This document shows, one piece after another, positions 280 to 37,187 of a stretch of DNA of 64,000 nucleotides; position 1 is the first letter of the stretch; the number at the start of each line of letters is the position of its first letter. The stretch is taken from the NCBI GenBank assembly GCA_017744605.1, contig JAGIAZ010000006.1:1-64000 (forward strand), read 5' to 3'. The DNA comes from Sphingobium sp. (GTDB lineage: Bacteria; Pseudomonadota; Alphaproteobacteria; Sphingomonadales; Sphingomonadaceae). The notes under the pieces are model-generated. The model saw only the letters and a list, made by a program, of their open reading frames with translations, had not been told where the DNA came from and did not search any database. A program made the position numbers and the translations under genes.

Positions 280-420
280 GGCGGGTCGGCCGGACAGGCC
301 GAGAGGAAACAGGAAAGGCCGGGGGCGCAGACAATGTCGCCCCCGCGTCGTTAAAGGGGAACCGCATGCCTGCGGGTGCGGTTCGCAAAGAGTTGGATTG
401 GCGCAGTGACGAATTCGGCC

Positions 421-1353: not shown

Positions 1354-1487
1354 CCCCTGAGCAGCAGCAGGAAATCCAGAAGCGTCAGCGCAGCCGTTCG
1401 ATCGTGATGGCGCTCGTCCTGGCCGCGATGGTCATCCTCTTCTTCGCCGTCGCCTGGGCCAAGATCGCGCAGGGGTCGATGCATTGA
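1350..1487 (+). CDS. small single-TM protein (45 aa) in the cox cluster, CoxF-like position
   Basis: ATG at 1350 overlaps the ctaB stop (ATGA) and the ORF overlaps the TTG start of cta[46 protein letters not shown] has one clear TM segment. Below the size cut of the supplied ORF track. Confidence 0.75.
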
Positions 1488-2062
1488 CGACCGCCGTACA
1501 GGGCAGGGGCAATCCGCGCCGGACCGCCATGATCGCGGCGCTGGCCGCGCTGTTCATGCTTGGTCTCGGCTTCGCCTCCGTTCCGCTCTATCGCATGTTC
1601 TGCGAGGCGACCGGCTGGGGCGGAACTACCCAGCGGGCCAGCGAAAAGCAGCTGGCTGCGCTCGCGAAGCCCGAAGCCGGCGCAGCGCGGACGGTCTCGA
1701 TCCGTTTCGATTCCAATGTGGCGCCGGGCATGCCCTGGAAGTTCTATCCCGAAAAGCGGGCTATGCCGGTCAAGGTCGGCGCCAAGAACATGGCGGTCTT
1801 CATCGCGAAGAACATGTCCGACAAGCCGGTGACCGGCCAGGCCACGTTCAACGTGACGCCGAGCCAGGCCGGCCCATACTTTACCAAGATCCAGTGCTTC
1901 TGTTTCACGGAGCAGACTCTCGCGCCGGGCCAGTCGGTCCGCATGCCGGTGCTCTTCTTCGTGGACAAGAAATTCCTAGACGATCCCGATGACAAGGATG
2001 TCCAGGAAATCACTTTGAGCTACACCTTCTATCCGGTTGAGAAGCCGGATCAGCAAGGCTAA
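1484..2062 (+). CDS. ctaG: cytochrome c oxidase assembly protein CtaG/Cox11
   Basis: [48 protein letters not shown] start. Confidence 0.95.
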
Positions 2063-2093
2063 AGCACCCGAGAGACTAGACAGGGAACATCAT

Positions 2094-2924
2094 ATGTCCG
2101 GCGCCAAGAACCACGATTACCACATCCTTCCACCCGACATCGTGCCGCTCCTCGGCGCCATGTCGGCGCTGGTGATGGCGCTCGGCGCTGTCGCCTGGAT
2201 GCATCCGGCGGAAATGGGCGGCTGGGGCGGCGCGACGTTCAGCCTGGGCATGATCGGCGTGCTCTTCACCATGTTCATGTGGTGGTCGAAGGTCGTGCGC
2301 GAAGCGCAGGTCGGCGACCATACGCCGGTGGTGCAGTTGCACCTGCGCTACGGCATGATCCTGTTCATCGCCTCGGAAGTCATGTTCTTCGTCGGCTGGT
2401 TCTGGTCGTTCTTCGATTTCTCGCTGTTCCCCACGGCGTTGCCGCCGATCGACGGGCTGTTCCCGTCGAAGGGCATCGAGGTCATGAACGCGTTCGAGCT
2501 TCCGCTGCTCAATACGCTGATCCTGCTCTGCTCGGGTACGACCGTGACCTGGGCGCATCATGCCCTCATTCACGGCGATCGTGACGGTCTCAAGAAGGGC
2601 CTGTGGTGCACCATCCTGCTCGGCATTCTGTTCACCAGCATCCAGGCCTATGAATATGCTCACGCGCCCTTCGCGTTCGGCAAGACGCCTTATGGCTCGG
2701 CCTTCTATATGGCGACCGGCTTCCATGGCTTTCACGTCATCGTCGGTACGATCTTCCTGATCGTGAACCTGGTGCGCGCCTATAAGGGCCACTTCACGCC
2801 CCGGCAGCATTTCGGCTTCGAAGCGGCGGCCTGGTATTGGCACTTCGTCGACGTGGTCTGGCTGTTCCTGTTCTGCGTGATCTATGTATGGGGCGGCTGG
2901 GGTGCGCCGGTCCACGGCGGCTGA
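2094..2924 (+). CDS. ctaE: cytochrome c oxidase subunit III
   Basis: [26 protein letters not shown]...[24 protein letters not shown]; in the cox cluster. Confidence 0.96.
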
Positions 2925-2943
2925 CGCGACGCAAAGGAAACGG

Positions 2944-2982
2944 AAGAGGCGCGTTCGGGAAGCCGGGCGCGCCTCTTGTTTT
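2944..2982 (+). terminator. Rho-independent terminator downstream of ctaE
   Basis: Stem AAGAGGCGCG (2944-2953) / CGCGCCTCTT (2968-2977) followed by GTTTT. Confidence 0.7.
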
Positions 2983-3010
2983 AGGGGTGCGGAAACATGA
3001 GCTTGAGACG

Positions 3011-3406
3011 ATGACCGCTAAGCCGCCCACGCCGCTTGTTCGTGCCGCCTTGCAGGCGCGCTGCCCGTCTTGCGAAGCCGCGCCACTGTTCGACGGCTGG
3101 GTCGGGTTCGCTTCGCATTGCCGTGCGTGCGGGCTCGATTATGGCAAGTTCAATGTCGGCGACGGGCCGGCGGCCTTCCTGATCCTCATCATCGGTGGGC
3201 TGGTCACGGCGCTCGCCCTGACGCTGCAGCTCAGTGCCCATCCGCCCTTCTGGGTGCACATCATTCTCTGGGTGCCGATCACCACCCTGTTGGTGATTCT
3301 GTGCCTGCGCGCGTCCAAGGCGGCGCTGCTGATCCTCGAATATCGGCATCAGGCGCGCGAAGGCCGGGTTGGCGGCACCACGCCGGACGCGAAGGAAGGC
3401 AGATGA
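3011..3406 (+). CDS. DUF983 family membrane protein
   Basis: LQARCPSCEAAPLFDGWVGFASHCRACGLDYGKFNVGDGPAAFLILIIGG: CxxC zinc-ribbon plus 2 TM, located between coxIII and SURF1. Confidence 0.9.
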   Translation: MTAKPPTPLVRAALQARCPSCEAAPLFDGWVGFASHCRACGLDYGKFNVGDGPAAFLILIIGGLVTALALTLQLSAHPPFWVHIILWVPITTLLVILCLRASKAALLILEYRHQAREGRVGGTTPDAKEGR

Positions 3407-4032
3407 ACCGCCGCCTCCCCATCATTGCCACGCTGGTCGTCGGCCTCGCCGTTGCGGCGATGATCGGCCTCGGCGTCTGGCAGCTTGCGCGCCTCAAGCA
3501 GAAGGAAGCCGCGCTCGCGGCCTATCAGGTCAATCTGACGCGGCCCGTCACGGCCTATCCCGCGATGAACCCGGCGGATGACCGCCTGCTCTTCCGAACG
3601 CTTGCCGCCAACTGCCTGCGCGTAACGGGCTGGCAGGTGATCGGCGGGCGTAGCCGTGATGGCGCACCGGGGTGGCGGCACATCGCGACCTGCGCAACCG
3701 GCGCGGAAGGGCCAGGGCTGCTGGTCGACATGGGTGTCGGCAGCGATCCCCATGGCAAGGCGAACTGGACGGGCGGGCCAGTCAAGGGACGCGTCACGCA
3801 TGAACCGGATCCCCACAGCTTCCTGCTGCGCATGCTGGGGCGCGCCCCGCCGCTTCGTCTCATGATCGTGAACGAGACCGCGGCGCCGGGCCTCAGTGCC
3901 TCGCCGCTGCCCGATCCCTCGTCTGTGCCGAACAATCACTTCTCATACGCGATGCAGTGGTTCTTCTTCGCCGCGGTGGCGCTGGTTATCTATGGTCTTG
4001 CGCTGCGCAAGCGCTGGCGAGAAGGCAATTAG
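3403..4032 (+). CDS. SURF1 family cytochrome oxidase biogenesis protein
   Basis: MNRRLPIIATLVVGLAVAAMIGLGVWQLARLKQKEAALAAY...NNHFSYAMQWFFFAAVALVIY. Confidence 0.92.
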   Translation: MNRRLPIIATLVVGLAVAAMIGLGVWQLARLKQKEAALAAYQVNLTRPVTAYPAMNPADDRLLFRTLAANCLRVTGWQVIGGRSRDGAPGWRHIATCATGAEGPGLLVDMGVGSDPHGKANWTGGPVKGRVTHEPDPHSFLLRMLGRAPPLRLMIVNETAAPGLSASPLPDPSSVPNNHFSYAMQWFFFAAVALVIYGLALRKRWREGN

Positions 4033-4195
4033 CCGTCACCCAACGGTCCTTCTCCCTTTCAGGGGAGAGGGGCTAGCGCCTGCCGGATATCGGCGATGAG
4101 AGAGCGTTCATCAGCGTCCCCCGATCCCCTTCACGGGCAAGCGAACAGGCACACCGTTGCACCCCCTGCAACTCGTCGCTAAGGCCGGGCGCGTC

Positions 4196-5596
4196 ATGCA
4201 GTATCAGAGCACCAGGGGAAGCGCTGCGGCGCTGGATTTCGAAGGCGCGACGCTTGCCGGCCTTGCGAGCGACGGCGGGCTTTATCTGCCGGAGCGCTGG
4301 CCGACCTTCACGGCGGACGCGTTCGCGGCGATGCGCGGCCTCTCTTATGTCGAGACGGCGGTACGGGTGATCGGGCCCTTCGTCGGCGACGCGCTGAGCG
4401 AAGCCGAGCTGCGCGATCTCTGCACCCAGGCTTATGCCCGCTTCGACCATGAGGCGGTGACGCCGCTCAAGCAGCTCGATCACCGGCACTGGCTGCTCGA
4501 ACTGTTTCACGGTCCCACGCTCGCGTTCAAGGACGTGGCGCTGCAGCTGCTTGGCCTGCTGTTCGAGACGTTCCTCAGCCGCCGCGACACGCACATCACC
4601 ATCGTCGGCGCAACCTCGGGCGACACCGGCTCGGCCGCCATCGATGCCGTGGCGGGTCGCGCCAAGATCGACATCTTCATGCTGCACCCGGTCGGCCGGG
4701 TCAGCGAGGTGCAGCGCAAGCAGATGACGACGGTGCTCGCGCCCAATGTCTACAACATCGCCGTCGAGGGCAGCTTCGACGATGCGCAGGCGCTGGTGAA
4801 GCGCATGTTCAACGATGCGGACTTCGCGGCGCGCTACGATCTCTCGGCGGTCAACAGCATCAACTGGGCCCGCCTCGTCGCCCAGGTCGTCTATTATGTC
4901 TATGTCGGCGTCCGCCTCGGTGCGCCCGAGCGCAGTGTCGCCTTCGCGGTTCCGACCGGCAATTTCGGCGATGTCTTCGCTGGCTATGTCGCCGCGCAAA
5001 TGGGCCTGCCGATCGAGAGGCTGATCGTCGCGACTAATGTCAACGACATCCTGCATCGTGCCTTGTCCTCGGGGGACTATAGCCAGGGCACGGTCACGCC
5101 GACCGCCACGCCAAGCATGGACATCCAGGTCTCGTCCAATTTCGAGCGGCTGCTGTTCGATCTCGGCGGGCGTAACGGTGGCGCGCTTGCCGAGCAGATG
5201 CGCGGCTTCGAGGCGACCAAGGCCATGCGCCTCACCAATGCGCAGCGCGAGGGCGCGGCCAGGCTGTTCGGATCGGCGCGTATCGACGAGATGGACATGA
5301 ATCGCGCGATGCGTTGGGCCTATGACGCGGCGGGCGAGATCATCGATCCGCACAGCGCCGTTGGCCTTGCCGCCGCGTTGGCGGCGGATATCGATCCGTC
5401 CGTGCCCGTGGTCACGCTGGCGACGGCGCATCCGGCCAAGTTCCGCGACGCGGTCGAGCGCGCTACCGGCGTGCGCCCCACGCTGCCCTCCCGCACCGGC
5501 GACCTGTTCGGCCGCGAAGAGCGCTATGTGACGCTGCCCGCCACCTTCGAAGCGGTGACCAGCTATATTGCCGAGCATGCAACGCCAAGGACCTGA
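4196..5596 (+). CDS. thrC: threonine synthase
   Basis: MQYQSTRGSAAALDFEGATLAGLASDGGLYLPE; LFHGPTLAFKDVALQLLG; GATSGDTGSAAI. Confidence 0.96.
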   Translation: MQYQSTRGSAAALDFEGATLAGLASDGGLYLPERWPTFTADAFAAMRGLSYVETAVRVIGPFVGDALSEAELRDLCTQAYARFDHEAVTPLKQLDHRHWLLELFHGPTLAFKDVALQLLGLLFETFLSRRDTHITIVGATSGDTGSAAIDAVAGRAKIDIFMLHPVGRVSEVQRKQMTTVLAPNVYNIAVEGSFDDAQALVKRMFNDADFAARYDLSAVNSINWARLVAQVVYYVYVGVRLGAPERSVAFAVPTGNFGDVFAGYVAAQMGLPIERLIVATNVNDILHRALSSGDYSQGTVTPTATPSMDIQVSSNFERLLFDLGGRNGGALAEQMRGFEATKAMRLTNAQREGAARLFGSARIDEMDMNRAMRWAYDAAGEIIDPHSAVGLAAALAADIDPSVPVVTLATAHPAKFRDAVERATGVRPTLPSRTGDLFGREERYVTLPATFEAVTSYIAEHATPRT

Positions 5597-5715
5597 CAGT
5601 TCCGTTCGTGTCGAGCGAAGTCGAGACACGCGTAGCGCCGTCCTGACGGTTCTCGACTTCGCCCGTCCTGAGCGCCTGCCGCAGGCTGGCAGTCGAAGGG
5701 CTCGAACCGAACGGA
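5597..5715. repeat. intergenic REP-like hairpin sequence
   Basis: CGTGTCgagcgaagtcGAGACACG (5607-5630), then TCGACTTCGCCCGTCCTGAGC...CTCGAACCGAACGG; the last motif recurs near 9498. Confidence 0.5.
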
Positions 5716-5719
5716 GGAG

Positions 5720-6595
5720 ATGATGGACCTTTCGACCCTCATCGCCGAGCCCTGGGCGGACTATGGCCTCATCGACAGCGGCGGCGGCGTGAAGCTTGAG
5801 CGCTACGGCCGGTATCGCTTCGTCCGCCCCGAGCCGCAGGCCATGTGGGACCCCGCCGGCACCAATTGGGACGCGCATGGCGAATTCGTGCCCGCATCGG
5901 ACGAGGACGGCGGCGGGCGCTGGCAGTTCGACAAACCCGTGCCGCGCGAAGGCTGGCCGCTCTCATGGCAGGACGTGCGCTTTCAGGCGAACTGCACGCC
6001 CTTCCGCCATCTCGGCTTTTTCCCGGACATGGCGCCGGTCTGGAGCTGGGGCCGGGCGCAGCTGGCCGGGCTCGAAAAGCCGCAATTCCTGAACCTGTTC
6101 GGTTATACCGGCGTCGGCACCCTGGCTTTCTCGGCCGCAGGCGCAGACTGCGTCCATGTCGACGCGTCGAAGAAATCGGTCGCGCAGGCCCGGGAGAATG
6201 CCGCGCTCTCCGGCATGAGCGATCGGCCCGTCCGCTGGATCATCGACGATGCCGCCAAGTTTGTCGCGCGCGAAGCCCGGCGCGGCCGCCGCTATGACGG
6301 CATCCTGCTCGATCCGCCCAAATTCGGCCGCGGTCCGGAGGGCGAGGTCTGGCGGCTGGAAGAGGACCTGCCGGGCGTCATCGCCGGCTGTCGCCAGCTG
6401 CTCGATGCGGACAGCCGCTTCCTGTTCCTCACCGTCTACGCCGTACGCATGTCCGCGCTGGCGATCGGCGAGCTCGTCCGCGCCCATTTCGCCGACCTGC
6501 CCGGCAAGGTCGAATGCGGTGAACTGGCCGTGCGCGAAGAGGCGCGTGGGTTGTTGCTGCCGACGGCGATCTGGGCGCGCTGGTCGCGGGGTTAG
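5720..6595 (+). CDS. class I SAM-dependent methyltransferase (RlmI/RlmK-like fold)
   Basis: FLNLFGYTGVGTLAFSAAGADCVHVDASKKSVAQARENAALSG; GILLDPPKFGRGPEGEVW. Confidence 0.88.
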   Translation: MMDLSTLIAEPWADYGLIDSGGGVKLERYGRYRFVRPEPQAMWDPAGTNWDAHGEFVPASDEDGGGRWQFDKPVPREGWPLSWQDVRFQANCTPFRHLGFFPDMAPVWSWGRAQLAGLEKPQFLNLFGYTGVGTLAFSAAGADCVHVDASKKSVAQARENAALSGMSDRPVRWIIDDAAKFVAREARRGRRYDGILLDPPKFGRGPEGEVWRLEEDLPGVIAGCRQLLDADSRFLFLTVYAVRMSALAIGELVRAHFADLPGKVECGELAVREEARGLLLPTAIWARWSRG

Positions 6596-7155
6596 CGTGC
6601 CAGAATATCGATAAATTTGAAATCGCCGGTCGAACAACCCAGCTCGATTTTACGTGCTCCGTTTAATTTCACATCCATCACGCGGGTCGTTCCGGCGAGC
6701 TTGATGGTGAGGTGTTCTCCGTCGAGCGCGATTTCGAAGGGCAGCGCTTGGCCCAAAGGCAAAGACCCGAGGGTCTCTTGAGACGGCGTGCCATCACCCG
6801 CTTTTCTGATGATCGCGATCGTCACCGATGCGCCTTCGCGAACGATCTTTTTTGTGGGCACAGATGCGGTCAACCCAATGCCGATCCAACGACGGCCCTC
6901 CGCCTCGGAAAGCCGCAGCTGGGCAGAGGGTGACCATTCGCCCTCGCGGTAAAGCATGTCAGCCTTAAGAGAACCGACAATGCTCCACTGCTCCGGACGA
7001 AGCATCACTTCCATTCTGGAAAAGTGCCCCGGCGTGGCATCGCAATCGAAATAGATTTGCCCGGCTTCAGCGGCCTTGCCGGGCATTGCTGAAACCAATG
7101 CGCACGCAGCTACGATTACCGCGCGCGAACGCCATACCGTCTGGTTTTCCCCCAC
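6592..7155 (-). CDS. hypothetical secreted protein
   Basis: N-terminal signal-peptide-like AVIVAACALVSAMPGKAAEA; no family recognised. Confidence 0.6.
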   Translation of the reverse strand: MGENQTVWRSRAVIVAACALVSAMPGKAAEAGQIYFDCDATPGHFSRMEVMLRPEQWSIVGSLKADMLYREGEWSPSAQLRLSEAEGRRWIGIGLTASVPTKKIVREGASVTIAIIRKAGDGTPSQETLGSLPLGQALPFEIALDGEHLTIKLAGTTRVMDVKLNGARKIELGCSTGDFKFIDILAR

Positions 7156-7727
7156 TACTTATCCTTCGACAGGTCATAGTCCTTGCGCGGCGTATGGCTC
7201 GCATCGCAGAAATCCGGGAGCCCCGAGTCCGCGATCACCACGCGCTTGGTGATGCGCCATTGGCCGTTCCGCTTGACCAGCCGGTCATATTCGCGGCCCT
7301 GTTCGACGAATCGGGGCGGCGCCTTCACCTGCTCATTGATGATGCCGGTCCAGATGAACTTGGCCGTCGCCGTATCGCCGGTCACGCTGATTTCCGGATT
7401 GGTCAGCAGCATGTGGAAGGTGCCCTTGGGCAGCGGCTGCGTCGCGCCCAGATCCTTGTAGGATTGGTCGATCCCCGCCTTGCCCATGTAGATCTTGCCG
7501 CACAGGTCGAACGTCGCGTCGTCGGTATAGTAATCCGAGAAGCTATGGCCGTTGCCGCCGAGATTGCCATAATAGCTGGTGATGAGGTCCTCGATCTGGA
7601 TCCGGTCGAGCAGCGTCGCCATCGTGGTCTGCGCCGGCTGTGTCGATCCCGGCGCGGCCAGGACCATTCCAACACCCATTGCCGACAAGCCAATGACGCG
7701 ACGTGCACCCTTTGCCAGGCTGTGCAT
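7155..7727 (-). CDS. SnoaL/NTF2-like domain protein, exported
   Basis: Within ORF 7155-8207; MHSLAKGARRVIGLSAMGVGMVLAAPGSTQ signal, then LLDRIQIEDLITSYYGNLGGNGHSFSDYYTDDATFD. Confidence 0.78.
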   Translation of the reverse strand: MHSLAKGARRVIGLSAMGVGMVLAAPGSTQPAQTTMATLLDRIQIEDLITSYYGNLGGNGHSFSDYYTDDATFDLCGKIYMGKAGIDQSYKDLGATQPLPKGTFHMLLTNPEISVTGDTATAKFIWTGIINEQVKAPPRFVEQGREYDRLVKRNGQWRITKRVVIADSGLPDFCDASHTPRKDYDLSKDK

Positions 7728-7858
7728 CCCTCTCTCCCTCATGCTCTGTTTGTGGAAGCTTAGGCGATTGCTCGGTTCAAACAAGGATAAGCTGTTCCCC
7801 GGCCTGCGTCGGGAAACGGCTCCTTGATACCGATTTTCGCGACGTCGCGGCCGATATT

Positions 7859-8500
7859 CTAATCCCGCCCGGCCCGTAGCGCCGCGCCGCCGACCAGCGG
7901 GCAGAGCACGACCAGCAGCAGCGAGCTTGCCGCAACCAGCTTGAGTGCGCCGATACCGGCGTCGCTCAGCGATCCGGCGCCGAAGATCAGGATCGGTATG
8001 GCGAGCGGCAACACGAGCAATCCCGCCAGCGCGCCGCTGCCCTTGAGGCCAGCCGTCAGCGCCGCCACCAGCAGCGTGAGCGCGGCGAGGCCGGGCGTTC
8101 CTAGGGCCAGACCGAGCTCGACCACCAGGATCGTCGAACCGTCGAGCTTGAGGAGCGCGGCCGAGGGCAGCGCGGCGATGAGCAGTGGCGGGCCGAAGCT
8201 CAGCCAATGCGCGATAAGCTTGGCGAGCAGGATGGTGCCTTCGCCGGTGCCGCGCACGACGAGCTGGTCGATGACGCCGGTGTCGCGGTCCGGCTCGATC
8301 AGCCGGTCGATGGGGAGGAGGCTCGCGAGCAGCGCCGCGATCCAGAGGAGGCCGCCGCCGGTCTTGCCGAGCAGGGCCGCATCCGGGCCGACGGCGAACG
8401 GGAAGAGCGCGGCGATCAGTAGCAGGAAGGCAAGCGGCAACCAGAGGCCGCCGCCCCGCAATGCACGCATGAGGTCGCGGGCGATGAGCGCGCCGATCAT
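7859..8500 (-). CDS. ccmB: heme exporter protein CcmB
   Basis: [36 protein letters not shown]; multi-TM; immediately downstream of ccmA with 4-bp overlap. Confidence 0.92.
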
Positions 8501-9096
8501 GCCGGAGCCTCTTCCGGCGCTGCGAGCGTCAGTTCGCCGTCGTGGCGCCAGCCGAGTGGCATGTGGGATGCAGCAAGGATGATGCCTCCTCTCGCGCGGT
8601 GATGTTCGACTGCCTGGGCCAGCGCCTGCGCGGACGCGACATCGAGGCCGTTGGCCGGCTCGTCGAGCAGCCAGATGTTCGCGCCCGACGCAATCGTCCG
8701 GGCGAGCGCGGCGCGCTTGCGCTGGCCGGTCGAGAGGATACGGACCGGGATGTCGGCAAGGTGGCCGATGCCGAGGTCGGCGAGCGCGGCATCGACGCGG
8801 TCGAGACCGACGCCGTCCAGCTTCGCCCAGAAACCGAGCGCGGCGCGGAGCGTTTTCTCGCGGTCGAGGGCGGCCGCTTCATCGGTGAGGGCGATCGTGC
8901 CATCGCCTTCTACGGTCCCGGCAATGGGCGAGAGCAGGCCCGCGACGATGCGCAGCAGGCTCGATTTGCCGATGCCGTTGGGCCCGGCGATGAGCGCGCT
9001 CTGACCGGCTGCGAGATCGAGGTCGAGGCCGGCGAAGAGCAGCCGCCCGCCACGACGGCAGGCGAGGCCCTTGATCGCAAGCCATGCCGCGCTCAT
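8497..9096 (-). CDS. ccmA: heme exporter ATP-binding protein CcmA
   Basis: Start at 9096 ([18 protein letters not shown]); Walker [10 protein letters not shown], signature [13 protein letters not shown], Walker B WLLDEP. Confidence 0.93.
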
Positions 9097-9120
9097 CCTA
9101 CGGCCTTGAGGAGAGAGACC

Positions 9121-9411
9121 ATGATTGCCCGCCTGACCGATGACGAGATCGCCGCCGCGCTGGCCGGCCTGCCGGGCTGGACGCTCGATGATGAGCGCAC
9201 CGGCATCACCCGCAGCGTCAAGTTCAAGGACTTCGTCGAGGCGTTCGGGTTCATGACGAAAGTCGCCCTGCTTGCCGAGAAGGCCGATCATCACCCGGAA
9301 TGGTCGAATGTCTATAATCGCGTCGAGATCCGGCTCTCGACGCATGACTGCGGTGGCCTGTCGAAGCGCGACATGGCGCTTGCGGGCAGGATCGACGTGC
9401 TGCTGGCGTAA
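9121..9411 (+). CDS. 4a-hydroxytetrahydrobiopterin dehydratase
   Basis: [84 protein letters not shown]. Confidence 0.95.
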
Positions 9412-9528
9412 CGGGTCGCCGTTCGCGTCGAGTGTGCCGCAGGCGCCCGAAGGCCAATGCGAGGCACATGTCGCGCGGTTGCGGTTCTTGACTGCGCTCG
9501 AACCGAACGGGAAAGGGAGGCAGGGCTC

Positions 9529-10143
9529 TCACAGCACTTTCGTGTTGTAATGGTGCCAGGCCATGATCGCCATGGCGCCGCGATGGGGCCGCCAGGCTTC
9601 GGCCATGTCGCGGATCGCTTTCTCGCTGGGCCGCTCGGGCAAGCCAAAAAGCGTGCCGATCGAAATCTGCACCGCAAGGTCCCCCGCCGGCCAGATGTCG
9701 GGCCGACCTTCCGCGAAGAGCAGGTAGATCTCCGCCGACCAGCGGCCGATGCCCTTGATTCGGACGAGTTGCGCAATCGCTTCCTCGTCGTCGATGGGGA
9801 GGGCGAACAGGTCGAGCGCGCCGCTCTCGACCAGCTCGGCGAGGCTGCGGGCATAGTCCTGCTTCTGCCGCGAGAGCCCACAGGCGCGCAGCGCGTCCAA
9901 ATCCTGCGCAAGCAGCGCCTTGGGCGTGCAGCCGGAACCGAGCGTCGCTTCCAGCTTCGTCCACATCGACGTCGCCGCGGCGACACTCACCTGCTGGCCC
10001 ACGATCGTGCGCAGCAGCGTCTCATAGCCGGGCGCACGCTTGCGCGGCGCGGGATAGCCGATGCGGCCCAGTGCCGCGGCGATCGCCGGCTCCCGTGCGG
10101 CCAGAACATCCATCGCGCTGCGCAGCGCGGCCTCGTCAAGCAT
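9529..10143 (-). CDS. DNA-3-methyladenine glycosylase II / HhH-GPD family
   Basis: YETLLRTIVGQQVSVAAATSMW; IKGIGRWSAEIYLLFAEGRPDIWPAGDLA HhH-GPD motif. Confidence 0.92.
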   Translation of the reverse strand: MLDEAALRSAMDVLAAREPAIAAALGRIGYPAPRKRAPGYETLLRTIVGQQVSVAAATSMWTKLEATLGSGCTPKALLAQDLDALRACGLSRQKQDYARSLAELVESGALDLFALPIDDEEAIAQLVRIKGIGRWSAEIYLLFAEGRPDIWPAGDLAVQISIGTLFGLPERPSEKAIRDMAEAWRPHRGAMAIMAWHHYNTKVL

Positions 10144-10237
10144 GTGATCCTACCCGCGTCGTCACGGCCCGTCGTGGCCGGTTGATTTCTGCCCAAGCAC
10201 CCCTCATAGCGTTGCCACCAACGGTTTGGAGATAAAA

Positions 10238-10555
10238 ATGCCGCAGCTGACGGTCGTGACACGCAATGGGTCGGAGCAGACATTCGAAGCCGAGAACGGC
10301 TTTTCCGTCATGGAAGCGATCCGCGATCACGGCGTTGACGAGTTGCTGGCGCTGTGCGGCGGGTGCTGTTCCTGCGCGACCTGTCATGTTTACGTGGACG
10401 ACGCTTTCTTCGACGAGCTGCCGCCGATGCGCGGCGATGAAAACGACCTGCTCGACAGCTCGGACCATCGCCAGGCCAATAGCCGGCTGTCATGCCAGAT
10501 CCAGATCAGCGGGAAGCTGGACGGGCTGCGGGTGACCATCGCGCCCGAAGACTGA
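10238..10555 (+). CDS. 2Fe-2S ferredoxin
   Basis: [45 protein letters not shown] cluster-binding motif. Confidence 0.95.
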
Positions 10556-10674
10556 GCGGGGCGAAGAATGTGCGGATGGCCCCCAATTCAGGCGTGGCGC
10601 CATAGCATACTGATTTTTATGAGGAAATGAATCGGAAAGTCAGCCGAACTGGAGGCAGATCCTCAATGTCGAAC

Positions 10675-10775
10675 TGCTCGTCATTGCGAGCCAGGCTTCA
10701 GCTGGGCGAAGCAATCCAGGGGCGGGCCAGATCGGCCTGGATCGCCGCGCGACTGCGTCGCTCGCCACGACGTTC
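10675..10775. repeat. dispersed intergenic repeat (GTCATTGCGAG...AATCCAGG type), inverted organisation
   Basis: CGTCATTGCGAG...GCAATCCAGG followed by GATCGGCCTGGATCGCCGCGCGACTGCGTCGCTCGC; the latter (10730-10765) is the reverse complement of 44776-44811 with 3 mismatches in 36 nt. Confidence 0.7.
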
Positions 10776-10837
10776 AGCTCCGCTGAAGCGGAGTCTGACG
10801 TTGGCGTCCAACGATTGCGAATATGTGTTTCAGGGGC

Positions 10838-11458
10838 TTAGGCCGCGTTCGACTCGTTGCGAATCGGCAGGATGACCACCGGATCGCCGTTGTTCATCAC
10901 GTCGAACAGCCGGCGCGCGAAGCCCGGCGGGACCCCGATGCAGCCATGGGTCGCGTAACCTTTTTCGACATCGCTTGCATGGATAGCGACACCGTCATTG
11001 GTGAGGCGGAGCATATAGCGCATCGGCGCATCATAGCTGCGCGACCAGTGATCCTTGTCCTTTTCCAGCACGCGGAAGTCCCCCGTGGGCGTGGCATGGC
11101 CATCGGTCCCGTAGAGGATGACTGCGGTGCCGATCTCATGGCCTGCGCGGAAGACGGAAATGGTTTGCGCGGCCAGGTCGACCCGCACCCAGGCCGGGCC
11201 GGTCGGCACGCTGTCATCGTTCCAGACGAACTCGCCATAATGCATGCGCCGATCGACGTTGAGGAGGCTGCGGATGCGCTCGTGGCGGCCGTCCGGCATG
11301 CGTATGTCCGCCTGCGGTCCGTCCGGAAAGTCGACGCGGACGGATTTTTCAGGGCTGGGCGCCGGCGTATTTCGACTGTCGCTGCGGGTCGCCGCGACCC
11401 AGCTTGCGGCCAATGACAGCGAGGCCGCAACGAGGAGGAGGGCGAGGAAGCGCTTCAC
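10838..11458 (-). CDS. L,D-transpeptidase (YkuD family)
   Basis: WVRVDLAAQTISVFRAGHEIGTAVILYGTDGHATPTGDFRVLEKDKDHWS...VAIHASDVEKGYATHGCIGVPPGFA (HxxxxxxxHGCI). Confidence 0.93.
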   Translation of the reverse strand: MKRFLALLLVAASLSLAASWVAATRSDSRNTPAPSPEKSVRVDFPDGPQADIRMPDGRHERIRSLLNVDRRMHYGEFVWNDDSVPTGPAWVRVDLAAQTISVFRAGHEIGTAVILYGTDGHATPTGDFRVLEKDKDHWSRSYDAPMRYMLRLTNDGVAIHASDVEKGYATHGCIGVPPGFARRLFDVMNNGDPVVILPIRNESNAA

Positions 11459-11471
11459 CGGCGCCTCAATC

Positions 11472-12158
11472 TCAGAATAGGCGCGGTGGGAGCGCGGCGT
11501 CGCCCGGCTTGGCGTGTGCTGACGCGGAGGCCTTGGGCAGCAGCTTGAAGCGCAGGAAGGCGCCGAGCGAGAAAAAGCCGGCGATGATCATGAGCCAGGT
11601 GCCGGGCTCCGGCACGCTGACCAGGATCGGTGGGTCAGGCTCTTTCCCCGGCGTTTCGCATTTGATCTTGTCGGTGCATTCATTGCCACCGCCACCGCCA
11701 CCGCCACCGCCAAGGATAGGGCCAACGCCCGGCACGATCTGGAAAAACCCGCCACCGCCGCGTGCGACGGTCGGCGTTGCGTCGGGCAGCCCTTCATGGG
11801 TGCCGGGCACGAAGTTACCGGCTTGAGCGGGCGGTTCGTTCTCCACGCCCAGAACCTCGGACGTGGGGCTAGCGGCTCCCGCCGGTGCGCCGGAAGGCTC
11901 CTTGTCGAGCAGCTTCTCGAATGCAGCAGGCATCGGCGCCGCATGCTTGAACTTGGTCTGACGCAGCGCGGCGCTGCCGCGTTCGCCCGGCGAGCGGGCC
12001 GCCAGAACCGACATGGGATCGCGCAGAACCTGGGCAATGGCGCTCCGCTGTTGATTGCTCATCAGAATGAAGGCCGAGACGAGCAACACGGCGACGAGCT
12101 GCGCGGCGATCTTCAGTCGCGATTTCCACTTCGGCTTATTCTCTTCGGTCATAGCCAT
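11472..12158 (-). CDS. PEP-CTERM sorting domain protein
   Basis: C-terminal SVPEPGTWLMIIAGFFSLGAFLRFKLLPKAS; internal poly-Gly GGGGGGGG tract. Confidence 0.75.
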   Translation of the reverse strand: MAMTEENKPKWKSRLKIAAQLVAVLLVSAFILMSNQQRSAIAQVLRDPMSVLAARSPGERGSAALRQTKFKHAAPMPAAFEKLLDKEPSGAPAGAASPTSEVLGVENEPPAQAGNFVPGTHEGLPDATPTVARGGGGFFQIVPGVGPILGGGGGGGGGNECTDKIKCETPGKEPDPPILVSVPEPGTWLMIIAGFFSLGAFLRFKLLPKASASAHAKPGDAALPPRLF

Positions 12159-12447
12159 GTGTTCCTACCATCAAAAGATTAATCGCCTCAAAACCTATAA
12201 CGGTTGGATGGCCGGATTTTTTCGTCTGCGGTGTTCTGAAATGGGACTTTTGCTTTGGCGCGACGTCCTGAAGGTAGCGAATTGAGTTGCGGGGCCGTGG
12301 GGGATGATTCCCGATCCTGGCCGATGGCGGCGGCTTTGCTCCTCAGGGCAAAGCTCGCCAGCGGCAAGGGCGCGACGGCGGCGGCGAGCCACCTGATCGG
12401 TCTGGTCATTCGAAAAATCCCCACAGGCTGGGCGCTGACGGGCGCGC

Positions 12448-13200
12448 TCAGCGAGTCAAACAAGCGTATAGCGCGATTGCGGCCGCATTGGAAACGTTGA
12501 GGCTCTCCATTTTTCGACTGATCGGCAACTTGGCCAGCATGTCGCAGTGATTGATGCTGTTGAGCCGGAGCCCTTCGCCCTCGGCGCCCAGAACAAGCGC
12601 GACACGGCTGGTGTTGTTGAGCGCCGTATCGAGCGTTTCGGTCGCTCCGCCGTCGAGCGCGATCCGCCAGTAACCGGCCTCGGCCATCTCATCGAGCGCT
12701 CGGGCGAGATTGACCACGCGCACCCACGGCACGAATTCGAGGGCGCCAGCGGCCGCGCGCGCGATCACGCCGGATTCCGGTGGCGCATGACGGTCCTGTG
12801 TCACGATGCCGAGCGCGTCGAAGGCCGCCGCGGAGCGCAGGATCGCGCCGACATTATGCGGATCGGTCACCTGGTCGAGCACGAGGATCGGCCGTCGCGC
12901 GGCCTCGTCAGGCTCGCCCTGTGCCAGCAGGTCGCCGAGCCAGATGTCCTCGAGCGCTTCGACTTCCGCGACGATGCCCTGGTGCGGCGCGTCGCGCGGC
13001 ACGTAGCGTGCCATGTCCGCCGCATCGGAATAGATGACCGGCAGACCTTGCGGCAACTCGAGCGCGGCGATCGCCTCCCGCGTCCCCCAGATCTTGCGAA
13101 TCACCCGCTCGGGATTGGCGAGCGCGGCGATGATGGCATGACGCCCATAAAAATGCGGATAGCCGCCCTTGGGCGTGCCGGTGCGATGACCTCTTTTCAT
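12448..13200 (-). CDS. rlmB: 23S rRNA (guanosine-2'-O-)-methyltransferase, SpoU/TrmH family
   Basis: YGRHAIIAALANPERVIRKIW; ILVLDQVTDPHNVGAILRSAAAFDALGIVTQDRHAP; VLGAEGEGLR. Confidence 0.93.
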   Translation of the reverse strand: MKRGHRTGTPKGGYPHFYGRHAIIAALANPERVIRKIWGTREAIAALELPQGLPVIYSDAADMARYVPRDAPHQGIVAEVEALEDIWLGDLLAQGEPDEAARRPILVLDQVTDPHNVGAILRSAAAFDALGIVTQDRHAPPESGVIARAAAGALEFVPWVRVVNLARALDEMAEAGYWRIALDGGATETLDTALNNTSRVALVLGAEGEGLRLNSINHCDMLAKLPISRKMESLNVSNAAAIALYACLTR

Positions 13201-13306
13201 GGGGACGCGCTTTTCCATGAGCGGCATTGACAGGCAAGGCCCCATTCGCCAAAGACGCCCGCTCCAATCCCCGTGCCTCATTGTCGGCGCAGGGATCAGG
13301 CGCCTT

Positions 13307-13392
13307 GGAAGGGTGGCCGAGTGGTTAATGGCAGCAGACTGTAAATCTGCCCGCGTGAGCGTACGCTGGTTCGAATCCAGCCCCTTCCACCA
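13307..13392 (+). tRNA. tRNA-Tyr (GTA anticodon)
   Basis: GGAAGGG...ctGTAaa anticodon loop...long variable arm...GGTTCGAATCCAGC...CCCTTCCACCA; 86 nt with encoded CCA. Confidence 0.95.
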
Positions 13393-13422
13393 TCCTTTGA
13401 AATCAGCGGGTTAGATGGATAT

Positions 13423-14330
13423 TCAAGCCGACTTGGCTTGAGGCTCGTTTTCGCCAGTGTGTAATTCGTGTGTAACGGCGTCAGAATTTCCTGTGTCCAG
13501 CGCACTGATGGCGTCGTCGATATGCTCGCCATGGATGTGCACATAATGCAGCACCATGGCCGGCGTCTTGTGGCCGCTAATCTTCTGGATCGTCGGAATA
13601 TCCGCCTTGGCCTTCACCAGTTGCGTGATGGCCGAGTGTCTCATGACGTGGGGAGTGCACTGCTTGGGGTCGAGGCCTGCGCGCTTCACGACCCGCTTGA
13701 ACGCCTCACGCATGTCCGGACGATGTTCCGACTTCGTATCGCTCCGAACAGCGGGGAATATCCAGCCGTTTCGATCGTCCTCCATCTCTCGTTGACGCTT
13801 CAGAGCGTCGCGCGGTGCTGGGGTGATTGGCTGCTCGCGCTCGCCGGCCTTGGCTTTGTCTATCCAGATGCGATTATGATCGAGGTCGCATTCATCATAG
13901 CGCCTGGCGACGATCTCGCTATGGCGCATCGCCGCGTTCAAGCCGAACATGACGAATAGCCATGCGCGCGGGTCCTGGTCGGCGATGGCAGCTTCCAGGA
14001 GGCGCTTGCGCTGGTCGGCGGAAAGGATGCGGATCTTCTGGCGCTGTTCCTTTTCCTTCGGGATCTCGGGGACGTCCTGTTTTGTGATCCAGCCCCACGC
14101 CTTAGACGAAGCGCAGTTCATGAGATGGGAAAAGGTGGCCATCTCTCGGTTGATGGTCGCTGCGGCTGCACCTGCTTCAGACGAAACTCGGTCACCTTGT
14201 CGAGCCGCTCGCTCCCCAGCCCAGGGACCAGCTGCTGGCGCAGATGCCGCTTCTTGTTGCCCAAGTCCTTGCCGCCCGTTTCCTCCAGACGAGTCAGATA
14301 GTCCTCAGCGGCTTCGGCTAATCGCAAAGC
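13423..14330 (-). pseudogene. tyrosine recombinase/phage integrase remnant
   Basis: Catalytic part 13423-14142 (LNAAMRHSEIVARR..., HVMRHSAITQL, GHKTPAMVLHYVH); core-binding part in another frame 14118-~14330 (EDYLTRLEETGGKDLGNKKRHLRQQLVPGLGSERLDKVTEFRLKQ); N-terminus missing. Confidence 0.85.
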
Positions 14331-14544
14331 CACCGCCGCTGCCGCTCGAGACAAAGACGTTCGGGTCGAGATAGTCGACCGGCTCCGCGAAGGCGCGCGG
14401 CATCTGCGCCATCTGGGCCGCGCCACCCTCGCCGCCCGGCCCCGCCATCATGTTGATCTGCGGATTGGCTCCGTCCCAGGTGCGGCCGCGATCGCGAGAG
14501 CGCACGGTGATCGTGCGGGGGGGGCGCGGCGGACTGAACCTCAT
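14320..14544 (-). pseudogene. truncated BNR/Asp-box (sialidase-like) protein fragment
   Basis: ITVRSRDRGRTWDGANPQINMMAGPGG... has an Asp-box (SxDxGxTW-like); YLDPNVFVSSGSGGGFAI ends at the junction with integrase remnant. Confidence 0.45.
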
Positions 14545-14671: not shown

Positions 14672-17503
14672 CTAGAGCTTGAAGCGCACGCCTGCGCGAT
14701 AGGCCCGTCCCACCACGTCGAAGATGCTCGCGCCCTCGCCGGTGATCGGGAAAGGCGGCGCCCGATCGAACAGATTGTTGACGCGCGCGAACAGCTCGAT
14801 CGCCTTGTCGCCCTTGGCCGAAAGGTCGGCCGTCACCGCGAGGTTGGTATAGAAGGTCGAGCGGGTGTGGTTGATGTTGACGCCGACGGCCGAGGCCTGA
14901 CCTTCGACGCGGGTGTTGTCGATCGTGCCGCCCTGATACCAGCGCATGTCGAGCGTCGTCGTCACGCGCTTCCCTTCGTAGGTGGCGAGACCGAAGATCG
15001 TCCAGTGCGGCTGGGTCACCTGCCCGGCGAGGTCGACGGTGGTCGCATTGACCGCAGCCGTGGTCGCCAGCTTGCCGGTGTAGTTCGCTAGCACGCGGCC
15101 CGAGAGTGCGCCGCTGGTGCCGAAGAGGGAGACCGGCGTGCGATAGGAGACCTCGATATCGACCCCTTCGGTCTTGAAGCGGTCCAGGTTCTGGAAGTTG
15201 ACGGTCACGCCGGTGATGGTCCCTGAGCCGTTCTGCGTCACCTGCGCGCAGAATTGCGGCAGATTGTCGAGGAAGCAGCGCTCCAGCACCTGGTTCGGCG
15301 TGATGGTACCGATCTGGCCGCTGATGTCGATGTTGTAATAGTCGATTGACGCGCGCAGCCCCGGGAACCAGCTCGGCTGGACGACGACGCCCCCGGTGAA
15401 CGTGTCAGCCCGCTCCGGCTTCAGGCTCGGATTGCCGATTGTCGTCACTGGCACCGGGATGACCGCAGCGGTGCGAGGATCGCGCACGTTGTTCGCCTGC
15501 ACGGCGGTCGGGGTGAACAGCTCGGAGAGGTTGCCGGCGCGGATGTCGCGGGACTGCGAGACCCGGAAGCGGATGTCGTCGTTCACGTCCCAGGTCGCGC
15601 CGATCTTCCAGGTCGTCACGCTGCCCGAGCTGCTATAGTCGGTGTATCGGATCGCGAGATTGAGATCGAGCGCCTTGGCGAAGGCCCAGTCGCGCGCGAG
15701 CGGCACGGCGATTTCGCCGAACACTTCCTTGACCGTGAAGCTGCCGACGATCGCCTTTCGGTTGGTCGACTGCCAGCCATTGGCCTGGGAAATCGGGTCC
15801 GCAACGGCGTCGATCGATTCCTTGCGCCATTCCGCCCCGAAGGCGGCGCCGATCGGTCCGGCCCAGGTCGAGAAGAGATTACCGCTCAAGCTTGCGGCGC
15901 CCACTTCCTGCTTGGTCACCATCTGGAACCAGGAGGTGCCCGACACATAAGCCTTCGCAGCTGCCGACGCGGCATCGGGGCCGAACAGATCGTAAGGCGC
16001 GCAGGCGGGATCGTCGTTCGTGGTGTTCGCGTCGGTGTTGATCCGGCAGGAGATGGTCGAGCCGAACTTCACCGCGTCGATCGCATTGCGGAACTTGGCG
16101 ACATTGATGTTGCCGATGCGGTTCTGCTGAAAGCGGTTGCGACCATATTGATAATAGGCTGAATATTTCCAGCCGCTGAAGATCTCGCCTTCCGCGCCGA
16201 CCACGCCGCGCCAGATCGAGGGCGAGCCGTCGGCGGTGCGTACGTCGCCTAGGCCATCCTCGCGGAACACCTTGCCCATGTTGAAACAGGTAACGCCCGC
16301 TGCCACGGCGGCATCGTGCACAGACGTCGGCAGGAAGGGATTGTTGATGTTGACGAGGAGCGAGCCCAGGCCCGATGCCGTCGTGGTCGTCGTGCAGGTG
16401 GGATTGCCAGTGATCGCGCCATTGTTGCGCGGCGGGAAGGTGAGCGCGTTCGAGAGATAATAGGCAAGCGAACCTTCCGCGAAGAGGTTCAGCGCGTTGC
16501 TGACCTCGAAGGACACGCGGCCCATCACGCTATAGCGCGTATAGGGATATTTGAGGTCGCCGCCCGGGGTCGGCGCATCGCCGAAATTGTCGGTGCCCCC
16601 GATCATATTATTGCCATAGACGGTGCCGTAGCCGAACTGGCGGGTCTGCCCATTGCCGAGGAAGGTGGTGCCACGCAGCGGACCGCTCGTGATGAGGCCG
16701 CCGGGCGACACGTCGGCGCGCCGGGTGTCGGTCGAGTAGATCGTGCCGGGCAGGCCGTTGGTCGCGAAGGCAGAATTGCCGACTGAGCCGGTGCCGGCCC
16801 ACGGCCGAGACAGATAGGGCTGCTGGAGGCTGCGAATGCCCTTGTCCTCGGAATATTCGCCGCCGACGAGCACATGGCCGCGCCCATCGGCAAAGCTGGT
16901 GCCGCCGGCAAGGGCGACCAGGAAGTTGCGGCTGTCGCCCCGCGAGGAGATGCCGGCCTGCGCCGTGCCCTCGATGCCCTCGAGGTCGTTCTTGAGGATG
17001 AGGTTGATGACGCCCGCGACGGCGCCCGAGCCCCAGGACGCCGACGCGCCGCCCGTCACGACCTCGCTGCGCTTGAGCAGGATGGCCGGAATGACGCCGA
17101 GGTCCACCGTGCCGTCCGAGAAGGTCGGCACATGACGGCGTCCGTTAACCAGCACGAGCGTGCGCTGCGAGCCAATGCCGCGCAGGTCGGGATAAAAGGA
17201 GGCCGTGGCGGACTGGCCGGTGGTGCGGAAGGACGGGACCTGCGCCAGCATGTCCTGCACCTGGAGCGGCGCCACGGACTTCAGCTGTGCCTCGGAGAGC
17301 ACCATGGTCGGCGTGGGCGCGCTGAACCCGCCGGTCTGGATGCGCGAGGCCGTGACGACGATCTCCTCGGTGCTGGTCGGCGTGGCAGCAGCGGTCTGCG
17401 CCCGGACGCCGCTTGCCAGCATCAGCGCAGTCGCACCGAGGCTGCCGGCGCTCAGCCAATAGCCCAGCGAGGCCCTGCTGGCCCCCGTCTTCTCCTTGCC
17501 CAT
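14672..17503 (-). CDS. TonB-dependent receptor
   Basis: EEIVVTASRIQTGGFSAPTP; plug domain ...DLRGIGSQRTLVLVNGRRHVPTFSDGTVDLGVIPAILLKRSEVVTGGASASWGSGAVAGVINL; 943 aa. Confidence 0.95.
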   Translation of the reverse strand: MGKEKTGASRASLGYWLSAGSLGATALMLASGVRAQTAAATPTSTEEIVVTASRIQTGGFSAPTPTMVLSEAQLKSVAPLQVQDMLAQVPSFRTTGQSATASFYPDLRGIGSQRTLVLVNGRRHVPTFSDGTVDLGVIPAILLKRSEVVTGGASASWGSGAVAGVINLILKNDLEGIEGTAQAGISSRGDSRNFLVALAGGTSFADGRGHVLVGGEYSEDKGIRSLQQPYLSRPWAGTGSVGNSAFATNGLPGTIYSTDTRRADVSPGGLITSGPLRGTTFLGNGQTRQFGYGTVYGNNMIGGTDNFGDAPTPGGDLKYPYTRYSVMGRVSFEVSNALNLFAEGSLAYYLSNALTFPPRNNGAITGNPTCTTTTTASGLGSLLVNINNPFLPTSVHDAAVAAGVTCFNMGKVFREDGLGDVRTADGSPSIWRGVVGAEGEIFSGWKYSAYYQYGRNRFQQNRIGNINVAKFRNAIDAVKFGSTISCRINTDANTTNDDPACAPYDLFGPDAASAAAKAYVSGTSWFQMVTKQEVGAASLSGNLFSTWAGPIGAAFGAEWRKESIDAVADPISQANGWQSTNRKAIVGSFTVKEVFGEIAVPLARDWAFAKALDLNLAIRYTDYSSSGSVTTWKIGATWDVNDDIRFRVSQSRDIRAGNLSELFTPTAVQANNVRDPRTAAVIPVPVTTIGNPSLKPERADTFTGGVVVQPSWFPGLRASIDYYNIDISGQIGTITPNQVLERCFLDNLPQFCAQVTQNGSGTITGVTVNFQNLDRFKTEGVDIEVSYRTPVSLFGTSGALSGRVLANYTGKLATTAAVNATTVDLAGQVTQPHWTIFGLATYEGKRVTTTLDMRWYQGGTIDNTRVEGQASAVGVNINHTRSTFYTNLAVTADLSAKGDKAIELFARVNNLFDRAPPFPITGEGASIFDVVGRAYRAGVRFKL

Positions 17504-17544: not shown

Positions 17545-18309
17545 TCAGGGGCTTACCACCACGGTCACCCGGCGTGTCGTCCAGTCCCCCACCTGATATT
17601 TGTCCTTGGCCACCACGACGTAGGTGGGGCTGGTCAGGCCGACTCCCTTCAGCAAATCAGCGATCTGGTTGGCGCGCCGGGCGGCAATCGCCTCGTCCTC
17701 GATAGCGAGGGTCCCGTCGTCGAGCCTGGTCGCGCCGCGCAAGCCGGTGATCTCGATTTTGCGGGCGTTCACCTCGCGCGCATATTTTAGGACCGGCTGG
17801 ATGAGGCGCGGCGTCGAGAAGCCGACCGTGCCGTTGAAATCATAATGGATATCGAAGGACTGAGGCTTGAACGGCGGCTGCGGCGCCGGTGGCGGTGGCG
17901 CATAATCGAACGCGAGGCGCCCCGCGCTCGGCCCCGGCGGACGGGGCGGCGTGAACGTCAGGTCGTAGCGGTCATCGGCAGGAAGCAGCTGATTGCAGTC
18001 GTCCGCCCGCTCCTGCATGATCGAGACCTTGACGGGCTTGAGCACGATGCCGCCGCAGATGGTCGGCGCATCGGTCACCTGGCCCTCCACCAGTACCTTG
18101 TGGCCGAGCGACGGCGGATTGAACTCTGCGCTCACGTCGGTCTGGATGCCAAGATAATAGAGTTTGCCCTTATGCTCAGCGAGCCAGCAAGGCACCGTTT
18201 TGGTATCGCGCACGATCGGGCATTCGACGAAGGCGATATCCTTCGGAGGCGTGGCGGCGACGAGGAGCGTGGCGCACAGCGCGAGCCAGGGGAGACGGCC
18301 GTCCATCAC
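17545..18309 (-). CDS. exported protein with OmpA-like C-terminal region
   Basis: Signal peptide WLALCATLLVAATP; C-terminal YAREVNARKIEITGLRG...EAIAARRANQIADLLKGVGL...TTRRVTVVVSP. Confidence 0.6.
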   Translation of the reverse strand: MMDGRLPWLALCATLLVAATPPKDIAFVECPIVRDTKTVPCWLAEHKGKLYYLGIQTDVSAEFNPPSLGHKVLVEGQVTDAPTICGGIVLKPVKVSIMQERADDCNQLLPADDRYDLTFTPPRPPGPSAGRLAFDYAPPPPAPQPPFKPQSFDIHYDFNGTVGFSTPRLIQPVLKYAREVNARKIEITGLRGATRLDDGTLAIEDEAIAARRANQIADLLKGVGLTSPTYVVVAKDKYQVGDWTTRRVTVVVSP

Positions 18310-19904
18310 AGGCTCCCCAGGAAATGCTCGAGGTCGTTCTTCTCCTGCTCGCTATACTGAATGTTGTAGCGCCGATCGTAGAAGTCGATCAGCTCGCGGA
18401 TGCTGCCTGCAGAACCGTTGGAGAAATAAGGCGCACGGGCTGCCAGCCCTCGGAATTGCTGCATGACGATCGTCCCCACATCGTTGCATTTGCCGGAGAT
18501 CAGCGCGCGGCCCGGATCCTGCGTGTAGATCACCCGGCCGAGATAGGGGTGCGGCGGCACGCTCTTGCGGCAGGTGACCTTGAAAAGCGGCATCTCGGGC
18601 TGCTCGTTGTTCCAGGGGTTGCGCGGCGTTTCCTTGGCCCAAGGCAGATTGGTGGTGCCGAGGTCCATCCAGCCATTCGCTGTATCCATGCCCATCATGT
18701 GCATCCCGTGGCAGGTCGAGCAGGTCCGCTTGGTCGGATTGCCAAGGCCGACCGAGTTGAGATGCATCGAATCCTTGATCCAGAAGGTGCGGAACATGAA
18801 GATGTCGTGCCCGCGCTTGATCGAGGCGCGCATCTCCGCCTCTTCAGGCTTTTGGGGGCCCTTCCACGCCTCCCCCATCGGGAAGACCCAGCGCGTCGTG
18901 TTATTGCCGAGCACGCCGACCTGGCCTGCCTCGAGAGCCCGCGGTCCGAAGGCGGTGGGGCCGTTGTCCGTGAGGCTGCCCGCGCCGGTCCGCCAGACCT
19001 GTGCGCCATAGATCTGGCTCTCGAAGGCCACGATCTTGGCGAGCTGGTCGGCCGTCGGTTTCTGCGCCGCCTGGAGATGGTTCAGCGCCGCGTCGATCGC
19101 CTGAGCCTTCAGGGTCGGAGCCCGCGCATCGGACATGAGGTTCATGCTGACGGGTCGCCCAGTGTCCGGATCGCGTGACGCCGGCATACCGGTCTTGCCG
19201 ACGAACTCGCCGGCCCCGAAGCGGTCCTGCGTCACATATTTCATGTTCATGACCGGACGCGGCCGCCGATAGACCGAGATGGTCGGGTTCGCGCTCTTCA
19301 GGCCATAAACCGGGCTCGTGTTGCAGCCGCCGGGATCACGCACCACCTCGATGTCGAATTCTGGCTCGATTGGTTTGCCCTCGGCATTCCTGGGCGGCCA
19401 GGGCAGGAACACCCTGATGAGCCCCCGCTTCAGCAGCAGCGAGTGCGAGGCGGGGTCGTCATGCGGCAGATTGGGGCAATTCTGGCCATCGATCGGCGAG
19501 AATAACGGGTCCCTGCCGCCCGTTTCCTGCCAGCGCTTCTGGATCGTCGCGACCGAGAGGCCCATCGCATCGGAGGGCTGGTGGCAGGTGACGCAGGCGC
19601 GGCCATTGGTGCCGATCGGCTCGAAAAAGGGATGCCCTTTCGTCTCGAAGCGGCCGCCGCTGTTGTAAAGGCCGAGGCGCCCTGTGGAATCTTCGTAGTC
19701 CACGGCCTCGGGGAAGGAGCGGCCGTCACCCGGGGACCACCAGCTGTTGATCGCCTTAGCTGCAGCCGCGATCGGTGTCGCCGTCTGGGCCCGCATCGCG
19801 ACAGAGCCCGCCGTAACCGAAGCCAAGCCTGCTGCGCAGAACAGCCAAGTCCGTGCCCCCACGTCCTCTTCCCCTTCATGCCACGATCCGGCGCGCCGAA
19901 TCAT
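18306..19904 (-). CDS. di-heme c-type cytochrome (cytochrome c peroxidase-like)
   Basis: Two CXXCH sites: ACVTCHQPSDAMG and TCSTCHGMHMMGMD; 4-bp overlap with downstream gene. Confidence 0.82.
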   Translation of the reverse strand: MIRRAGSWHEGEEDVGARTWLFCAAGLASVTAGSVAMRAQTATPIAAAAKAINSWWSPGDGRSFPEAVDYEDSTGRLGLYNSGGRFETKGHPFFEPIGTNGRACVTCHQPSDAMGLSVATIQKRWQETGGRDPLFSPIDGQNCPNLPHDDPASHSLLLKRGLIRVFLPWPPRNAEGKPIEPEFDIEVVRDPGGCNTSPVYGLKSANPTISVYRRPRPVMNMKYVTQDRFGAGEFVGKTGMPASRDPDTGRPVSMNLMSDARAPTLKAQAIDAALNHLQAAQKPTADQLAKIVAFESQIYGAQVWRTGAGSLTDNGPTAFGPRALEAGQVGVLGNNTTRWVFPMGEAWKGPQKPEEAEMRASIKRGHDIFMFRTFWIKDSMHLNSVGLGNPTKRTCSTCHGMHMMGMDTANGWMDLGTTNLPWAKETPRNPWNNEQPEMPLFKVTCRKSVPPHPYLGRVIYTQDPGRALISGKCNDVGTIVMQQFRGLAARAPYFSNGSAGSIRELIDFYDRRYNIQYSEQEKNDLEHFLGSL

Positions 19905-36138: not shown

Positions 36139-36155
36139 TATGCAAGCGCTTTCAT
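36139..36155. promoter_or_regulatory. candidate LacI-family operator
   Basis: ATGCAAGCGCTTTCATG upstream of the 36090 hydrolase start (minus strand). Confidence 0.62.
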
Positions 36156-37144: not shown

Positions 37145-37187
37145 GCCCCCTTTTGGGGCGAAAGGCCGCGAAATGCAAAATCTGCTT

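Follow-up and report, generated by a model that had tools for sequence, protein, structure and literature searches.

A decayed tRNA-Tyr-targeting integrase beside accessory catabolic genes in Sphingobium sp.: a probable relic of a small element rather than the edge of one large island

Introduction

In Islander genomic islands, the far endpoint is defined by a displaced fragment of the target tRNA gene (PMC4383910), and in the opd element of pPDL2 from Sphingobium fuliginis, which has degradation genes aboard, the integrase uses a tRNA 3′ end (PMC3516476). The window described here, i.e. the whole stretch of 64,000 nucleotides covering positions 1-64000 of contig C66 (170,597 bp) from Sphingobium sp., resembles the former type in having an integrase directly beside a tRNA 3′ end and convergent on it. 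Islander-type endpoints consist of the tRNA gene and its displaced fragment (PMC4383910), which is also the case in the intact relatives of the window's integrase, whereas in the window the integrase is present only as a pseudogene and there is no displaced fragment by which an island could be delimited. The pPDL2 element shares with the window a sphingomonad host, an integrase at a tRNA 3′ end and degradation genes, but it differs in using tRNA-Ser, in being active and in carrying its catabolic genes on a transposon inside the element (PMC3516476).

Sequence data

The source genome is a draft assembly of 3.37 Mb in 86 contigs with a completeness of 81% and a contamination of 5.3%. Integrase relatives were searched for in 94 congeners and in 401 genomes of the order. 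The homologues of the window's integrase and those on plasmids indicate the Sphingomonadales. Genome G081, hereafter the closest sister, has the most similar RlmB (90% identity over the 194 residues available). The features of the locus are listed in Table 1.

Table 1 Features of the window around and to the right of tRNA-Tyr, with the evidence for each
Feature	Position	Strand	Evidence and remarks
Left flank with ctaB, ccm, YkuD and rlmB	1..13227	.	Pfam, tblastn
tRNA-Tyr(GTA), chromosomal attachment site	13307..13392	+	ARAGORN, Rfam RF00005; CCA encoded
tRNA 3′ end, candidate surviving att copy	13369..13392	+	Single copy in the assembly
Integrase remnant, catalytic domain	13423..14172	-	Pfam PF00589; 70% identity to residues 152-390 of the L063 integrase
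Frameshift interval in the integrase	14157..14172	-	tblastn with the L063 integrase switches frame there
Core-binding-domain fragment of the integrase, other frame	14157..14306	-	60% identity to residues 99-148 of the L063 integrase
Sialidase-like (Asp-box) gene fragment, truncated and internally deleted	14305..14544	-	Abuts the integrase remnant
TonB receptor opening the catabolic region	14672..17503	-	Pfam; homologue in G082:C10 and G081:C74, there too with the two genes that follow
Two conserved genes (254 and 532 aa) of the TonB module	17545..19904	-	Genus counts, megaplasmid homologues
LacI, P450, CapA/PGA_cap, 337-aa gene, TonB receptor, tannase module	36152..44745	.	Pfam
Catabolic block, running to about 72 kb on the contig	57770..64000	.	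Collinear in G082:C10 (tblastn)

Results

The tRNA-Tyr gene and its left flank

The tRNA-Tyr gene with an encoded CCA was found by ARAGORN where the original prediction had placed it, and its acceptor stem (GGAAGGG/CCCTTCC) is common to the window and close relatives. The preceding genes have housekeeping functions according to their Pfam matches (CtaB-type UbiA, CcmB and its ABC ATPase, YkuD and RlmB-type SpoU) and occur in contig C29 of G084 in an identical order up to tRNA-Tyr, with 62-85% amino acid identity (tblastn). Due to this collinearity, and since the tRNA including its acceptor stem is common to close relatives, the left flank and tRNA-Tyr are native. An origin of the flank from a wrong organism was ruled out, rlmB being 82-90% identical to close relatives and tRNA-Tyr near-identical. 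The sharp change of content at tRNA-Tyr that had been noticed earlier is also real, with housekeeping genes to its left and TonB receptors and catabolic genes recognised by Pfam to its right.

In the closest sister, the tRNA-Tyr gene at the end of contig C346 (locus L197) starts with ACAGG at the contig end and ends with CCCTTCC, leaving the acceptor stem unpaired as assembled, which is probably a contig-end artefact.

The integrase remnant and its junction

The reverse-strand frame 13423-14142 codes for 239 aa corresponding to a Phage_integrase domain (Pfam E-value 4.9e-28), is convergent on tRNA-Tyr and stops 31 bp short of the tRNA 3′ end. Thus, the tyrosine recombinase proposed at this place was recovered as to its family, end and orientation, but not as an intact gene, since what is present is a frameshifted, 5′-truncated pseudogene. 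A full-length frame of about 390 aa is absent at the locus, and comparison by tblastn with the intact 393-aa integrase of locus L063 leaves about 100 N-terminal residues missing. All four candidate catalytic residues, recognised by motif, are kept, namely R (MRHSE), HxxR (HVMR), H (GHKTP) and Y (LHYVH). Because the N-terminal part is missing, recombination of DNA by this protein would be unlikely despite the motifs kept, and judging from its sequence the integrase is a dead pseudogene, a relic rather than an active member of its family. A relationship of the integrase to phages was considered and rejected, the phage matches being weak (about 26% identity in the records with the best coverage).

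At about 14315 the remnant meets the sialidase-like fragment, in which the stretch 14322-14514 shows about 79% DNA identity to genes elsewhere in G081, G061 and G072. Compared with a 389-aa frame in contig C222 of G081, this fragment is deleted internally and lacks the 3′ part.

A family of tRNA-targeting integrases

The first relatives, obtained from a contig scan, were L063 (69%) at tRNA-Tyr and L064 (53%) at tRNA-Leu. Altogether, about two dozen homologues were found among the 94 congeners and the 401 genomes of the order, with only five in the genus, the window's included. At 24 of the 26 family loci a tRNA 3′ end lies just past the integrase 3′ end, the tRNA being Tyr, Leu(TAA), Cys or Phe. 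The five tRNA-Tyr rows, that of the window among them, form one clade in the maximum-likelihood tree (support 100/99) and the four tRNA-Cys rows form another (98/92), so the integrase phylogeny tracks the identity of the target tRNA, which makes the family a clean small case of such tracking. Two intact homologues, 70% identical, adjoin tRNA-Tyr in the same arrangement as in the window, and the predicted product of the window's gene is assigned to the tRNA-Tyr-targeting clade of this family. One of the relatives, L063 (JAFEEY010000081.1), shares with the window an amino acid identity of about 70%, tRNA-Tyr as the neighbouring gene, the same orientation and similar spacing; unlike the window's integrase, that of L063 is intact.

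Attachment repeats

Direct repeats taking in 40 bp or more of the tRNA 3′ half delimit elements of 34.7 kb in G392, 12.3 kb in G317 and 3.2 kb in G428, all at tRNA-Tyr (the last with a shortened integrase), and of 11.4 kb in G472 at tRNA-Leu. In G438, at tRNA-Cys, a 16-bp repeat lies at a distance of about 14 kb, and none was detected in the 60 kb read in G043. The measured elements of related integrases thus span 3-35 kb. The G392 element at tRNA-Tyr agrees with the window locus in orientation and has a similar spacing, but in contrast to it possesses an intact integrase and has kept the far att copy.

As the repeats of the relatives are at least 40 bp long, the distal att copy of the window's element would be expected to be a long, easily found repeat. 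No second copy of the tRNA 3′ end, GTTCGAATCCAGCCCCTTCCACCA, was found in the window, in contig C66 or in the 3.37-Mb assembly with up to 3 mismatches allowed, which agrees with the earlier inspection of the window and extends it to the whole draft; the assembly being 81% complete, a distal copy could sit in the missing sequence. The tRNA-Leu(GAG) gene at 139705-139791 was tried as a second boundary and rejected, as there is no second copy of its 3′ end on C66. Core genes resume at this tRNA and ftsE near 140 kb on the contig, and since this tRNA also neighbours ftsE and catabolic genes in the closest sister, tRNA-Leu(GAG) marks the resumption of core genes and is not a proven att site.

The catabolic region and its whereabouts in relatives

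The 532-aa gene at 18306 is present in 6 of the 94 genus genomes and the CapA gene at 38400 in 4 of the 94. Judging from these two tested genes, the catabolic DNA is accessory and not core; conservation of the 14-64 kb region as core genome of the genus, which would have contradicted the original prediction, was not found.

In the closest sister, the genes corresponding to those at 20020, 18306, 17545 and 14672 are found at a distance of some 10-14 kb from tRNA-Leu(GAG) and ftsE, and their order and orientation with respect to these two agree with C66. The tRNA-Tyr of this sister is located on a separate contig, where it is followed by an antiporter-like and a TonB-type frame (read by eye), with no integrase of the family after the tRNA. 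In G082, contig C10 has the 14672-19904 module next to the 57770-72358 block, and neither tRNA-Tyr nor an integrase of the family was detected in the 160 kb read. The module at 36152..44745 is partly collinear in G084, where the CapA-TonB-tannase genes are some 130 kb downstream of tRNA-Tyr and shared modules are found 93-136 kb downstream of it; the modules may thus be part of a more extensive variable zone on that side of tRNA-Tyr.

Homologues of the CapA gene and of the 532-aa gene are also located near each other on two Novosphingobium megaplasmids, pNL2 of N. aromaticivorans (82% amino acid identity for CapA) and pABRDHK22 of strain EMRT-2, where the homologues of the 532-aa gene adjoin a second hypothetical gene. 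Both megaplasmids share TonB receptors with the window as well, and pABRDHK22 also LacI and P450, but they differ from it in their megaplasmid location, in gene order and in possessing neither the integrase nor tRNA-Tyr in the stretches read. No relaxase, conjugation or phage genes were recognised by Pfam among the scanned window proteins.

The window also contains a 910-aa protein with G8 and CEMIP beta-helix domains (28411-31143), families better known from animal hyaluronan-binding proteins. Between this gene and the next module there are IS630-type transposase frames at 31249-32212, one of 149 aa with an HTH match followed by one of 199 aa.

Variability of the tRNA-Tyr site

Over the first 16 kb past tRNA-Tyr, the window has no genes in common with any of 29 relatives. 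The arrangement after this tRNA is common to G058, G059, G084, G094 and G107, and G061, G072 and G082 each differ. In the window's genome, most of the common arrangement is located on contig C3, from about 3.5 kb past tRNA-Tyr in G084, and no tRNA was detected in the 65 kb of C3 scanned. This contig was considered as the reciprocal half of a rearrangement and rejected, there being no integrase and no significant sialidase fragment on it.

Where congeners carry rlmB and ftsE together in a single sequence, the distance to ftsE is mostly 0.24-0.55 Mb, on the rlmB side of tRNA-Tyr, with the orientation worked out by hand and circularity assumed for two congeners. In C66 ftsE lies 128 kb away on the opposite side, so C66 is either rearranged relative to the congeners or misjoined.

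Loci L036 (G019), L047 (G008), L053 (G017), L162 (G082) and L167 (G089) have 1-2 kb in common soon after tRNA-Tyr, and frames weakly similar to tyrosine recombinases are present in L036, L162 and L053; other element lineages may use the same tRNA-Tyr.

Eight congener loci (L033, L034, L035, L038, L041, L043, L044 and L056) possess, just after tRNA-Tyr, a common leader GGCGCGCCGCCTCTTTCGGGTTTCCGG ... GCGCGCC ... GAGCCCG, which precedes a frame starting with MAWL(V/I)LGI and resembling a small multidrug-resistance transporter. The leader segments CGGGTT and GAGCCCG could pair, there is no meaningful Rfam match in the leader, and a possible uncatalogued regulatory RNA is suggested.

Discussion

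It is quite likely that tRNA-Tyr is a genuine attachment site with the eroded relic of a small element, later joined by deletion or rearrangement to unrelated catabolic DNA. An integrase of this family would have recombined the tRNA-Tyr gene with an attP in which the tRNA 3′ half was duplicated, so that the tRNA was restored and a displaced copy came to lie at the far end. A deletion or rearrangement would later have taken away the 5′ portion of the integrase together with the remainder of the element and its distal att copy, as well as the 3′ portion of the sialidase-like gene, and would have placed the relic beside accessory catabolic modules with a history of their own, as found near tRNA-Leu and ftsE in the closest sister and on Novosphingobium megaplasmids. 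In no relative was the intermediate state seen, with the element still intact at this locus within the clade.

Of the island originally proposed, the attachment site at the tRNA 3′ end is upheld by the tRNA-Tyr integrase clade and by the att repeats of intact relatives at this tRNA. The boundary of a large catabolic island is not supported, given the lack of a distal repeat, the dead integrase, the 3-35 kb span of related elements and the presence of the modules elsewhere in sisters and on megaplasmids. Parts of the region are found at other loci in G081, G082 and G084 and on plasmids, which is not the distribution of one insertion. On this reading, the content change at 13.4 kb marks where a collinear block ends at a variable site and not the limit of one mobile island. 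The window looks like an island, yet its integrase is a dead one from a family of small elements and its modules lie elsewhere in relatives.

An assembly or binning error joining the tRNA-Tyr side to the catabolic side at about 14.3 kb would fit a draft with this level of contamination and an adjacency seen in no relative, each side being backed separately (the left by G084 and the right by G081), but we consider such a chimera improbable, since the joint consists of two decayed gene fragments, resembling natural erosion rather than a repeat-driven misjoin, the G+C content is alike on both sides, and the left and right sides have their close relatives in one and the same genus. One large integrative catabolic island at tRNA-Tyr (up to about 125 kb, 13.4-139 kb), whose integrase would since have become inactive and whose distal att copy would have disappeared, could account for the right integrase at the right tRNA, the rare downstream genes (6/94 and 4/94) and the core genes resuming near 140 kb, but it is highly improbable in view of the missing att repeat in the assembly, the 3-35 kb measured for related elements, the occurrence of parts of the block on their own in G081 and G082, with neither integrase nor tRNA-Tyr, the failure to recognise conjugation or phage genes among the scanned window proteins, and the position of ftsE on the opposite side of tRNA-Tyr in congeners, which does not agree with a simple insertion into the ancestral order.

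Beyond the small-element relic itself, a recurrent breakpoint can be suggested with low confidence: short-lived small elements of several integrase lineages would insert and decay at tRNA-Tyr in this clade, and their remnants would seed deletions and rearrangements by which unrelated catabolic modules, of chromosomal or plasmid origin, come to lie beside the tRNA. The locus calls for caution in island calling, as a tRNA gene, an integrase frame and a sharp content change together can mimic a genomic island. If the recurrent-breakpoint suggestion is true, apparent tRNA-bounded catabolic islands would arise by juxtaposition and not by integration.
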